Part shown: one piece after another, positions 58,651 to 62,924 of the stretch
Layout of the letters: each line of letters begins with the position of its first letter
Numbering within the stretch: the stretch's first letter is position 1
Assembly: GCF_000265295.1 (NCBI RefSeq)
Contig: NC_018002.1
Coordinates: 496,001-560,000, forward strand
Length of the DNA: 64,000 nt
Reading direction: 5' to 3'
Origin: Sulfurospirillum barnesii SES-3
GTDB lineage: Bacteria; Campylobacterota; Campylobacteria; Campylobacterales; Sulfurospirillaceae
Notes under the pieces: model-generated
Databases searched by the model: none
What the model saw: the letters and a program-made list of their open reading frames with translations, nothing else
Told to the model about the DNA's origin: nothing
Made by a program: the position numbers and the translations under genes

Positions 58651-58688
58651 GATGTACCATGCACGAATGCATTGGTACATCTTTTTTT
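58651..58688. terminator. Bidirectional terminator at the end of the bd-like operon
   Basis: GATGTACCA (58651-58659) pairs with TGGTACATC (58673-58681), and TGCA/TGCA extend the stem over a one-base bulge to the loop CGAA. Seven T follow on the plus strand, overlapping the minus-strand stop codon of 58687-59880; a T-rich stretch is also present on the minus-strand side. Confidence 0.85.
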
Positions 58689-59880
58689 AGAGGATATTGT
58701 TAAATAAAATACCAATGCCCCAGACAAAATAAATTGCCATCCATGTAATCATGATGTAAAGTGTTGATTTTCCAAGTCTGCTCACCATCACATCTTTGGA
58801 ACCATCAAAAACACCTTCATTTTTGCCCACTTTCCATGCCATACTAAGTAAATATGCCACGCCGACAAAGCCCATAATTAAAAAGGTACCTAGGAACATG
58901 ACAATGGTTGGGATTTCAAGATTGACAGGATAATCGTAAATGTTATAGCCCAATTTTCCCATAATATCAAAACGAATCACCTCTCTCATGGTGGAGATAA
59001 GCAGAGCAACGACCACCAAAACCAAGGTTGTATAGTAGCTGTTGCTGTTCATTTTTGCCATCACCAAAAGTACCAAAACACCGACAACCGTAGCAAGCGA
59101 TACGAGGTGGAAAAGGTAGCCAATTTGGAGCATCCACAACACAAACAATGCCGCACTGATGAGCAGTCCCATAACGGCAAGATTGGTGCCTAATTTGGCA
59201 GTGTAGCTAATAAAAGAGGCTTCAAAATCTTTTCGTGTGGATAAAAATCGGCTGTAGTTTTGTAAAAAGATACCTACAACAGGGATGCTTAAGCTCACCA
59301 TAAAGGCTAAACGAATTACATCGATGTTAAACGTCCAACCACTGGTATCGACAACACCATTGGGTGCGTACATGTTCATCCACGCATTAGGCATAATGGA
59401 AGTAACGGCAAAATTGTGCATTAAGATGCCTGCAAAAACCAAGATGCCAAAGGAGATAAAACCAATAAGTGTACTGCCCGATTTTTGACCTCTGTTGGCA
59501 TAATAGTACCAATAATACATACTATAGCCCACGATGAGCGTATAAATGAAAATGAAGACCCACATGCCTGAAAGCGTGTTGGTCACGTACCAATTGGGAT
59601 CATAAATAACCTGCGTAAACAAAAGCGGAGCTACCCCTAAAACAATCAAAATCGAGATACTGATTTTGCCTGTTTGAATGAGATGCGGTGTTAAAATACT
59701 CCAATGTTTATCACTACGTCCTTTGGCTGAGCCGTAAAGCGAAAGCCCCATGGAACCTAGAGCAAGAAGCACAAAGGCTGCATGCAATGCCCATGTTAAG
59801 ACATAGAGTATTTGAAAAACGATGGGGTAAAAAGGAACCCCTGCAGGGTCTCTGAGTGCTAATAATACAGATGCGTCCAT
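58687..59880 (-). CDS. Polytopic subunit of a cytochrome bd-superfamily-like complex
   Basis: 397 residues, about nine membrane helices. The first helix (YVLTWALHAAFVLLALGSMG, His near 32) resembles CydA helix I, which ligates a b-type haem; further His lies in LMHNFAV. It is paired with the larger CydA-like subunit 9 bases upstream and looks like a second, diverged CydA-type subunit rather than CydB. No c-type haem motif. AAGGAG precedes the ATG. It most likely forms a heterodimeric quinol or cytochrome oxidoreductase with its partner; the substrate is unknown. Confidence 0.6.
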   Translation of the reverse strand: MDASVLLALRDPAGVPFYPIVFQILYVLTWALHAAFVLLALGSMGLSLYGSAKGRSDKHWSILTPHLIQTGKISISILIVLGVAPLLFTQVIYDPNWYVTNTLSGMWVFIFIYTLIVGYSMYYWYYYANRGQKSGSTLIGFISFGILVFAGILMHNFAVTSIMPNAWMNMYAPNGVVDTSGWTFNIDVIRLAFMVSLSIPVVGIFLQNYSRFLSTRKDFEASFISYTAKLGTNLAVMGLLISAALFVLWMLQIGYLFHLVSLATVVGVLVLLVMAKMNSNSYYTTLVLVVVALLISTMREVIRFDIMGKLGYNIYDYPVNLEIPTIVMFLGTFLIMGFVGVAYLLSMAWKVGKNEGVFDGSKDVMVSRLGKSTLYIMITWMAIYFVWGIGILFNNIL

Positions 59881-59889
59881 TGTTTCTCC

Positions 59890-61227
59890 TTAGTATTTAA
59901 GCGATGCAAAGTATTCTGCCATTGCATCGTATTCGTTTTCGGGTAATTTGAGGGTTGGCATATAAGAAAATGAACCTTCGCCTATGGCGTATAAAATAGC
60001 CTTAACGCCCTCTTTATCCATACCCACGAGTCTGTCTTTTAACGGTCTAAACACCCCCGTTTTTTCCAACGAGTGACAGTTTGAACACGCCATTTTGGCT
60101 AAGAGTTCTCCTGCTTCAAGTCTGTTTTCATCCGTGAGTGTTTTCAGACGTTGTGGCACAAAAGGGTTTACATGTAAAAGTCCTTTTTCCGCAATGATGG
60201 GAAGTTCACTTTTAATATGTTTACCAGGAACATCACGGCTGATGATTTGGTTGGAGTAGATGTACTGACCCGCAACATAGGGTTTTCGCATAGACTCTCT
60301 TAATTTCTCACCCGACCACAATCCTGAGATAAGAATCACACCGATCATAGCACTAGCAAGTACTGGGTTAATAAACTTCGGCTTGATAATAGCCACTGCA
60401 AAATACACCATAAAAAGAAGGGTCAAAATAATTCTATTTTGAATAATCTCATCTTTAGAAAATGCAAAAACAGCATGCGCATTATCAGGGAGTGTTCCCA
60501 TATACCAGATAAAGAAAAAGAGGGTAATAAACCCACCCAAGATACTCACATAGCCCATTTTGCGGCTGAGTTCATTGGAGAGCGCTTCGTTTTCTTTTCG
60601 CATGGCACTGGAAATAACCAAACCAATCACCCCTGAGAGCATAATCATAAAACCAATACGCAAGAACATATGGGGGAAGGTATTGATCCCAAAAAAAGCA
60701 TCACTTGCACTGCCTGTTGTATAGTACGCTTGTGTGCCTGGCCACATCATAAAACTGATAATACCAATGATAAGTGCTAAGGTTCCCACCGAAGCAATGG
60801 CAAAGGTGTAGGTAAGCTGAAGATGTGTTTTTTTGTCTATTTTGTTCATGAAGTAGACCAGCACAAAAACGCCGATGACTTCATATACAAAAAAGACCCA
60901 CTCGGTTGCCCAAACCCATACAAAGTTGTGAATCAGAGCACTAATACCTCTAGGGCTAGCCGCCGTTGCGGTGTACCAAATACCAGGACCTGTGATAGAG
61001 CCTATGACGTAAGAAAAAATCAACAAAAACATACCGTATTTTTTCATATACGGATAGTAGTCATTTCGATTTTCTGTGTACGCTTTGTGTGCCAAGAAGG
61101 CAAAAAGCATCGCTGCTCCAACTGACGTATGCGAAGCTAAGATGTGTATCGTGCCCGTGACACCCATCATCCAAGCACTTCCAAATTCTGGAAAATAAAA
61201 CAATGGAAATTGTCCTATTATATCCAT
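59890..61227 (-). CDS. CydA-like membrane subunit fused to a C-terminal cytochrome c domain
   Basis: 445 residues. Residues 1-305 hold about eight membrane helices resembling CydA: helix I with His28/His33 (GTIHILASHTS), ATEWVFFVYEVIG with Glu109 and Glu116 near where CydA has Glu99/Glu107, and His186 (FPHMFLR). No GRQPW quinol-loop motif is visible. Residues about 365-445 are a periplasmic mono-haem cytochrome c with CSNCH (381-385) and axial Met423 (YMPTLKLP). AAAGGAG precedes ATG 61227. The combination suggests a bd-superfamily enzyme that exchanges electrons with c-type haem. Confidence 0.7.
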   Translation of the reverse strand: MDIIGQFPLFYFPEFGSAWMMGVTGTIHILASHTSVGAAMLFAFLAHKAYTENRNDYYPYMKKYGMFLLIFSYVIGSITGPGIWYTATAASPRGISALIHNFVWVWATEWVFFVYEVIGVFVLVYFMNKIDKKTHLQLTYTFAIASVGTLALIIGIISFMMWPGTQAYYTTGSASDAFFGINTFPHMFLRIGFMIMLSGVIGLVISSAMRKENEALSNELSRKMGYVSILGGFITLFFFIWYMGTLPDNAHAVFAFSKDEIIQNRIILTLLFMVYFAVAIIKPKFINPVLASAMIGVILISGLWSGEKLRESMRKPYVAGQYIYSNQIISRDVPGKHIKSELPIIAEKGLLHVNPFVPQRLKTLTDENRLEAGELLAKMACSNCHSLEKTGVFRPLKDRLVGMDKEGVKAILYAIGEGSFSYMPTLKLPENEYDAMAEYFASLKY

Positions 61228-61341
61228 GAAGTCTCCTTTGAGTAAAATTTTTAACCAAATGGTATTATCAAACAGGTGTGTTAAATAAGTGTTAATTTTA
61301 ATTTAAATTAATTTTATTGATAGATTATTTCAGGAAACGAG

Positions 61342-61360
61342 AGGTTAAACTGTTTAACCT
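61342..61360. promoter_or_regulatory. 19-bp perfect palindromic operator at the HugZ-like promoter
   Basis: AGGTTAAAC, centre T, GTTTAACCT. It covers the expected -35 region of the promoter at 61365-61373 and lies in the 165-base divergent gap to the bd-like operon. Dyad symmetry around one base is typical of a dimeric repressor or activator site. Confidence 0.7.
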
Positions 61361-61392: not shown

Positions 61393-61875
61393 ATGAAAGA
61401 ATTTATCGCTACGATTCAAACCACCATCATCGGCACCCTAGATGCAAAAGGGCTTCCCTTTAGCTCTTACGCACCTTATATTTACGATGCAAATCGTTTT
61501 TATGTCTACATCTCTGACATCGCAACCCACGCCAAAAACATTCAAAGAAACCCTAAAGCCTCACTCTTTTTTGTGGAAGATGAGAGTAAAACGGAGAATG
61601 TATTTGCCAGAAAGCGTGTGTCATTGCAATGCGATAGCCAAAAAATTGAGCGAGGCAGTGATCGCTTTGAAGAAGTACTGGGTTTGTTCGCTGAAAAATT
61701 TGATGCCAAAATGGTTGGTACACTGAAAAAAATGTTGGACTTTAATCTGTACGAATTTAAAGTCACCTACGGCGAAGCAACCTTCGGGTTTGGCAAAGCC
61801 TATTTTATCGGTGGAAAAAATATGGACGAACTGGTCGAGCGAACAGGCGACAATCCGCACCATGGAGTGAAGTGA
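61393..61875 (+). CDS. HugZ/pyridoxamine-phosphate-oxidase-like FMN protein
   Basis: 160 residues, split beta-barrel flavin-binding fold. TIIGTLDAKGLPFSSYAPYIY, NPKASLFFVED and ARKRVSLQC fit the PNPOx/HugZ group, and the C-terminal YGEATFGFGKAYFIGG followed by His-rich NPHHGVK resembles the HugZ haem-contacting end. HugZ degrades haem to release iron in Helicobacter and Campylobacter. It is shorter than H. pylori HugZ, so a non-haem FMN role is possible. It is divergent from a haem-dependent oxidase-like operon. Confidence 0.7.
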   Translation: MKEFIATIQTTIIGTLDAKGLPFSSYAPYIYDANRFYVYISDIATHAKNIQRNPKASLFFVEDESKTENVFARKRVSLQCDSQKIERGSDRFEEVLGLFAEKFDAKMVGTLKKMLDFNLYEFKVTYGEATFGFGKAYFIGGKNMDELVERTGDNPHHGVK

Positions 61876-62252: not shown

Positions 62253-62924
62253 ATGATTTATAATTATGACTTTGAATTCCAAAATGCTATAGAAAATACA
62301 ATTAAAGTAGGGGTTAACATAGATAATTATGAACCAACTAATAAAAGATACTTTACCCAGAATATAGGAGATTTTTCAAATAAGATCATTTCAACATTGC
62401 TTTGGCTTAAAGAAAAGAAAAAAATCAAAGGTCAACCAGAATTCATTCCTTTGTTAGGAGCAATAATAGGAAATTGTGGACCATTTCATAATTATATGAA
62501 GCCAATTATAGAACAAGCCTTTAATTGTAAAAGTTTTTTAACGCTTGGTTATATTAAATTAACTTACAATGATATGGAAGAAACAACATATCACAAATTT
62601 GAATTAACTGATATTGAAAGATCAATTAATTCAAATGGAATATTTTCGCATAATCATCATATTTGGTTAACTTTAGATTCTGGTGAAATTTTAGATATGA
62701 CATTTTTAATGACCTATAAGAGTATCAATGATAAGAACTTTTATAAAACTGTTGTAAACGAAGGGATACCATTTGAATTTGTCACTAGGCATTATTCTGA
62801 GCTTCCAAAAGGGATGGAGTATAAACCAATGTTTGTTGGAGACGAGGTTTTAAATAAAGCAGGTTATAATATTAAATCTTTAACTAATATAGTTGTGTGG
62901 GATAGTTATCCCGAAAATATCTAG
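62253..62924 (+). CDS. AT-rich orphan gene of unknown function
   Basis: 223 residues, MIYNYDFEFQNAIENTIKVGV. Noticeably richer in Ile, Asn, Lys and Tyr, and visibly more AT-rich than its neighbours; only a weak ribosome binding site (AGGGA). No signal peptide or clear membrane helix. GNCGPFHNYMKP and SHNHHIWLTLDSGEILDMTF include conserved-looking Cys and His, but I recognise no family. Beside an antitoxin remnant, it is probably horizontally acquired accessory DNA. Confidence 0.7.
   Translation: MIYNYDFEFQNAIENTIKVGVNIDNYEPTNKRYFTQNIGDFSNKIISTLLWLKEKKKIKGQPEFIPLLGAIIGNCGPFHNYMKPIIEQAFNCKSFLTLGYIKLTYNDMEETTYHKFELTDIERSINSNGIFSHNHHIWLTLDSGEILDMTFLMTYKSINDKNFYKTVVNEGIPFEFVTRHYSELPKGMEYKPMFVGDEVLNKAGYNIKSLTNIVVWDSYPENI

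Follow-up and report, generated by a model that had tools for sequence, protein, structure and literature searches.

A CydA-like protein fused to cytochrome c and its CydA-like partner in Sulfurospirillum barnesii: a candidate cytochrome c-linked oxygen reductase of the bd superfamily

The locus considered here raises the question of whether an enzyme of the cytochrome bd superfamily may be driven by cytochrome c rather than by quinol, and which substrate it would reduce. Cytochrome bd oxidases are heterodimers of related subunits and, to our knowledge, the bd oxidase biochemistry known so far was all obtained on quinol-driven enzymes, the archaeal CydAA' included. The minus strand of the window, i.e., the whole stretch of 64,000 nucleotides of S. 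barnesii SES-3 that was analysed, encodes subunit A (59890..61227; 445 aa), with a CydA-like eight-helix core (aa 1-331) and a cytochrome c domain (aa ~366-445), and subunit B (58687..59880; 397 aa), a CydA-like paralogue with the eight-helix core and two additional C-terminal helices, without the cytochrome c domain. The two genes form an operon: the Shine-Dalgarno sequence of A, AAAGGAG, lies at 61233..61239 (minus strand), and that of B, AGGAG (59886..59890, minus strand), is inside the 9-base gap past the stop codon TAA of A. Both are certainly genuine coding genes, because the pair is still conserved in another phylum, where the identity falls to 49%/36%, and both ATGs are preceded by a Shine-Dalgarno sequence. 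The gene B stands downstream of A at all loci with a long enough contig (38 loci in species genomes), the pairing being conserved at >60 loci, and 145 positions in A and 71 in B are invariant among 37 sequences. An earlier note, made from the letters of this DNA alone, had proposed these open reading frames and, in A, the residues His28, His33, Glu109, Glu116, His186, CSNCH 381-385 and Met423; the frames are both present with the same coordinates, and each residue is found at its place.

The fold of each subunit was modelled singly and haem-free by AlphaFold2 from the alignments of 44 (A) and 43 (B) relatives, with pLDDT 78 and pTM 0.74 for A, and pLDDT 83.9 and pTM 0.81 for B. The model of A contains the eight core helices expected from the note. 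Among the solved structures, ranks 1-10 for A were occupied by CydA chains of bd oxidases, which superpose over about 305 residues at 3.5-4.0 Å (Z 21.7-24.2) and are headed by 6rx4_A (Z 24.2, 304 residues, 3.7 Å rmsd); alternative complex III (Z 17.8) and PsrC (Z 14.6) follow. The ranking for B, with 7ose_A at the top (Z 25.2, 332 residues), had the same order, CydA was the best chain within each bd entry, and the NrfD-like chains of alternative complex III and PsrC were clearly lower than CydA for both subunits. These next matches are what would speak for a quinol:cytochrome c oxidoreductase or an NrfD/alternative-complex-III-like module, in which the haem c is the electron exit and not the entry. 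However, for A and B alike the CydA chains lead by 4-6 Z units, there is neither an iron-sulfur nor a molybdopterin subunit, the quinol loop is missing, and neither A (44 members) nor B has an NrfD-type Pfam match; the NrfD-like subunits and PsrC share a related membrane helix arrangement, but differ in motifs and partners and score lower structurally, so that we regard this reading as very improbable. The CydA fold, on whose presence the earlier note had staked its reading, is thus found in A by structural comparison, and no better match to another family, such as NrfD-like, occurred, alternative complex III and PsrC scoring lower.

The sequence profiles point in the same direction. The hhalign comparison gave E 3.3e-5 for A-CydA and E 7.8e-6 for A-B, P-values of such comparisons varying with the sequence set and being weaker for the subtype I described below alone (0.002 for A-CydA and 0.0014 for A-B), while B and the CydB profile showed no match (P 0.11). 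On these profiles, B reads as a paralogue of A, and a CydA-type ancestry of B is favoured, in agreement with the description of the 397-aa partner in the note as CydA-like and not CydB-like. The Foldseek matches of B, however, include CydB chains as well, and judged by fold alone it could therefore be named CydA/CydB-like. The family PF01654 matches 16 of the 44 A relatives (best 1.9e-6), and B has no Pfam family match. The sequence search of the PDB gave no match for A as a single sequence, cytochromes c and one weak CydA only for the A profile, and noise only for B. Taken together, A and B very probably constitute a complex of the cytochrome bd superfamily.

The cytochrome c domain of A (aa 366-445; 59893..60132, minus strand) matches PF13442 and aligns structurally (VIA-align) to cytochromes c, with the haem c motif CSNCH at 60087-60073 (minus strand) and Met423 in the same domain. 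The fusion described by the note is confirmed by PF13442 in all 44 A members, whereas Met423 is kept in 35 of 37 relatives. In three sequences of a Sulfurospirillum group (L033/L037/L077), this axial Met of haem c is replaced by Ile (YIPPI), and these three members without the Met ligand count against the best explanation given below. A remnant of the cytochrome c domain of A was observed in another genome of the same genus (L076, 5838-6194), where the remainder of the operon was not found.

The residues of the active-site type were compared with those of E. coli CydA. His28 and His33 of A lie in helix I (61129..61146, minus strand), His28 being invariant in 44 members and aligning with the CydA helix-I haem ligand, which we take to be His19 in E. 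coli; the CydA helix-I-like His ascribed by the note to B is His33, invariant in both subtypes. Glu109 and Glu116 in helix III (60880..60903, minus strand) are candidate counterparts of E. coli Glu99/Glu107 by helix position only, since the helix-III profile alone gave no alignment to CydA; they are invariant in the 44 members of both subtypes, Thermus A has Asp in place of Glu116, and their spacing, as noted earlier, is seven residues versus eight in E. coli CydA, i.e., differs by one. The positional basis of this equivalence, the spacing and the Thermus Asp likewise weigh against the best explanation. The residues H28, H33, E109, E116, H186, C381, C384 and H385 are kept in 37 of 37 A relatives, and those invariant across both subtypes are H28, H33, E109, E116, R190, E307, R310, E311, R314, K315, P316 and CxxCH. 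In B, the motif R299-E300-x-x-R303 (58972..58986, minus strand) is the counterpart of R310-E311..R314 of A, with Glu or His at position 300 depending on the subtype; the helix-I His and the R-E-x-x-R motif are retained and the Glu pair is absent, the active-site-type residues being by computation conserved in A only. The topology of A, with helix boundaries from the AlphaFold2 model, is N-terminus out, eight helices and cytochrome c at the C-terminus. By analogy with the CydA topology, the haem c and the conserved His and Glu would face the periplasm, and His28/33, Glu109/116, His100, His186 and Glu307/311 of A would lie in the periplasmic half.

Further canonical features of CydA are lost or diverged. 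The note had found no GRQPW quinol-loop motif: the strict GRQPW is indeed absent from A, but the place of this motif is the end of helix VIII, not the Q-loop. The segment E311-S-M-R-K-P-Y at the end of helix VIII of A (60277..60297, minus strand) is read as a counterpart of E-x-GRQPW, whose Glu445 in E. coli is presumably the ligand of haem b595. The helix-VIII profile gave LRESMRKPY to VAEVGRQPW as the best alignment, weak alone (p 0.049), and the structural alignment of A to E. coli CydA ends at model residue 322 and chain residue 456, an offset compatible with GRQPW; RKPY is therefore considered as a diverged counterpart of GRQPW. The check for a b595 ligand proposed in the note thus leads to E311-x-x-R-K-P-[YF] at the GRQPW site, the profile support being weak (p 0.049). 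The haem b558 ligands of E. coli CydA are, as we assume, His186 and Met393. No invariant Met that matches Met393 was found in helices VI-VII of A among 37 sequences, and His186 of A belongs to subtype I only and is offset from the canonical b558 position; both the lack of a Met393 counterpart and the loss of His186 in the divergent subtype weigh against the best explanation. The canonical Q-loop sits between helices VI and VII (PMC9846854). The corresponding loop of A in the AlphaFold2 model has 13 residues (245-257), so that the long Q-loop is missing and A is without a conserved quinol site.

The protein A is present in 53 of 397 sampled Campylobacterota genomes and at full length in 3 of 398 sampled Pseudomonadota, one further genome matching the cytochrome c domain only, and plasmid-borne relatives occur in Methylosinus (50%), Thermus thermophilus (32%) and Agrobacterium (26%). 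A divergent subtype (II), with A 25-28% identical to that of subtype I, was found in 8 of the 53 A-bearing Campylobacterota genomes and in two Pseudomonadota; in all 7 members compared, its B carries a CxxCH domain of its own. The profiles of the subtypes are homologous end to end (P 6.3e-34 for A and 1.9e-11 for B). In three genera, both are found at one and the same chromosomal position: thiC-mrp-[operon]-chemoreceptor, with flanks 85-99% identical (L122/L026 versus L073); a slot of an Arcobacter-like genus, with flanks of 59-78% (L120/L121 versus L070/L072); and a weaker one in a third genus, where one neighbour has 81% and another 58% (L123 versus L074). Such in situ displacement of one subtype by the other suggests their equivalent function. 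The mutual exclusion of the subtypes per genome was also seen, but not used, about one co-occurrence being expected by chance. Across the subtypes, position A100 (His or Arg), A186 (His/Met or Ser/Gly/Gln) and B155 (His or not) co-vary; the Thermus proteins follow the subtype I pattern with Met186, and those of Agrobacterium the subtype II pattern, yet with B lacking the cytochrome c. Haem binding by the residues A100, A186 and B155 is a speculation. We would only tentatively propose a copper-free bd-fold cytochrome c oxidase in two interchangeable wirings that displace each other in one slot: subtype I with the haem c and an extra low-spin haem, held by the subtype I-only His100 and His/Met186 of A and perhaps by His155 of B, and most of subtype II with a second haem c on B.

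The genomic context bears on the substrate and on the role. Small c-type cytochromes adjoin the operon in L007, L033, L037, L039 and on one Methylosinus plasmid; in L033, a linked kinase, a regulator and c-type cytochromes were seen directly upstream. The alphaproteobacterial operons of the Methylosinus and Agrobacterium plasmids run on into a kinase and a regulator, for which ActS/PrrB/RegB and ActR/PrrA/RegA are the top NCBIfam models (E 1e-45 to 1e-67) and which are labelled only RegBA-like, as the scores are below the curated cut-offs. In the divergent-subtype operon of Campylobacterota, a thioredoxin-like and then a Fer4_18 protein follow downstream, which would fit haem c or oxidase assembly. 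The adjoining c-type cytochromes, the RegB/RegA-like operon partners and the in situ subtype replacement support the view that A-B is probably a bd-superfamily cytochrome c:O2 oxidoreductase. The earlier reading as a possible cytochrome c-linked oxygen reductase is supported, with O2 activity and the cytochrome c donor as its presumed parts. A bd-fold reductase of another small molecule, such as NO, peroxide or nitrite, is an unlikely alternative, counted because bd oxidases react also with NO and peroxide and the axial residues alone leave the substrate unfixed; against it, the residues of the CydA O2 site have counterparts here, the RegB/RegA-type regulators point to respiration, and no NO- or nitrite-specific gene was met in the neighbourhoods read.

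The same cytochrome c:O2 chemistry might serve another role, namely an O2-scavenging or stress oxidase (O2, cyanide, sulfide, copper shortage) and not an energy-conserving terminal oxidase, which we hold to be possible but the lesser chance. Besides the A-B operon, the single-contig host genome of 2,510,109 bp carries genes for the cbb3 subunit CcoN and a canonical CydA, and two genes for cytochrome b; with these, an electron chain is at hand, in favour of the cytochrome c:O2 reading. The heme-copper gene is taken as CcoN since ccoNOQP is carried by all Sulfurospirillum genomes (PMC4794192). The two other oxidases already in Sulfurospirillum count against the best explanation and, as cbb3 and CydAB, in favour of the stress role, as do the mobility of the operon among chromosomal contexts and plasmids, the Zn uptake genes adjoining it in Arcobacter and Thermus, the methanobactin genes nearby in Methylosinus and the apparently dedicated OmpR-type box; the metal-gene neighbours may, however, be a coincidence, and the sequence does not separate a stress from an energy-conserving role. 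The flanks in Thermus (L126) and Arcobacter (L070) contain metal-binding proteins of the ZnuA type and a protein of the CobW or Fur family. On the Methylosinus plasmid pMSC49c (L125, 8001-17332), the operon is near methanobactin genes and feoB, a setting in which an oxidase without copper would make sense for a methanotroph with its high copper demand.

The regulation of the operon was approached through its upstream region. The direct repeat TTAACAC-N4-TTAACAC with an 11-bp period (61278..61295, minus strand) is the sole exact match in the genome, and the putative -10 hexamer GATAAT (61264..61269, minus strand) follows 8 bases downstream. The direct-repeat box is shared among Campylobacterota copies and is absent from the L033/L037/L077 group. 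Of the 64 distinct upstream regions, 26 contain [TC]TAAC-N6-TTAACA of the same period, then a -10 at fixed distance, versus 0.01 expected from mononucleotide shuffles, a contrast that overstates the case, as the regions are related and the pattern was derived from some of the same sequences. Direct repeats of an 11-bp period ahead of the -10 are typical of OmpR/PhoB regulators, and a regulator of this type is a direct neighbour of the operon in L029, L070 and L033; by analogy, the repeat looks like a putative dedicated OmpR-type box. No FNR-like sites were found upstream of A. The perfect palindrome GGTTAAACTGTTTAACC at 61343-61359 is unique in the genome and was dropped as a regulatory element, being absent from all relatives. 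Further upstream, a divergently transcribed gene (61393-61875) encodes a HutZ/HugZ-like haem-utilisation protein (131 bits versus the curated cut-off of 225), whose adjacency to the haem-enzyme operon is not conserved; the 223-aa frame between it and thiC (62253-62924) has no Pfam or NCBIfam match. The HugZ/thiC/fliN neighbourhood was rejected as a conserved context, since it is retained in close relatives only.

Compared with the canonical quinol-oxidizing CydAB (E. coli 6rko/6rx4, Geobacillus 5doq), A-B shares the fold, the helix-I His and the heterodimer, and A the E..R-x-P-aromatic motif at the end of helix VIII; A differs in lacking the Q-loop, the strict GRQPW and an invariant Met393 counterpart and in the Glu spacing of 7 versus 8, and the pair differs in the added haem c domain and the CydA-like, not CydB-like, partner. 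Murali, Gennis and Hemp in 2021 reportedly described an OR-C family of the bd superfamily with a cytochrome c domain and without the quinol site. Set against this description, A-B likely belongs to the published OR-C kind, the CydA-type core, the fused cytochrome c domain (44/44 members) and the lack of a conserved quinol site being common. We know of no one who has measured the cytochrome c:O2 reaction for this branch of the bd superfamily. The OR-C family is named in PMC10839748, PMC13189123 and PMC11707229; in the papers found that cite Murali 2021, family names are given but no OR-C biochemistry, and no paper on the A-B operon in Sulfurospirillum was found. According to PMC10839748, OR-N type CydA/CydA' occur in Nitrospinota and Nitrospira and have in common with A-B that both subunits are CydA-like and cytochrome c is the proposed donor. 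The divergent-subtype B is related to two proteins (L110/L111, profile P 1.2e-8), presumably of the OR-N type, which differ from A-B in being longer and without the fused cytochrome c. Two further proteins, both long, CydA-like and weakly matched by the Pfam bd family (L114, 5322-7742; L115, 6017-7837), are akin to the divergent-subtype B and possibly of the OR-N type.

In the proposed cytochrome c:O2 mechanism, a soluble cytochrome c, fed by a cytochrome b/c complex, would reduce the haem c of A, from which electrons would go directly to a pair of haems at the active site of A, bypassing the canonical b558-quinol site; these haems would be held by His28, Glu311 and the Glu109/Glu116 pair. At the haem on the His28 side, O2 would be converted to water, the protons coming from the cytoplasm, and B would replace CydB as a structural or extra haem-binding partner. 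The complex A-B would then add to cbb3 and the canonical CydAB a third terminal oxidase, one free of copper. New here are the conserved A-B pair, the subtype swapping, the RegB/RegA-like operon partners and the Campylobacterota promoter box. Sulfurospirillum and Arcobacter are cultivable, and hence the question is open to experiment. If true, a cytochrome c-driven bd oxidase would be the copper-free equivalent of cbb3, and the reading of respiration from genomes, in which B is without a Pfam annotation and A is labelled 'cytochrome c', would change.
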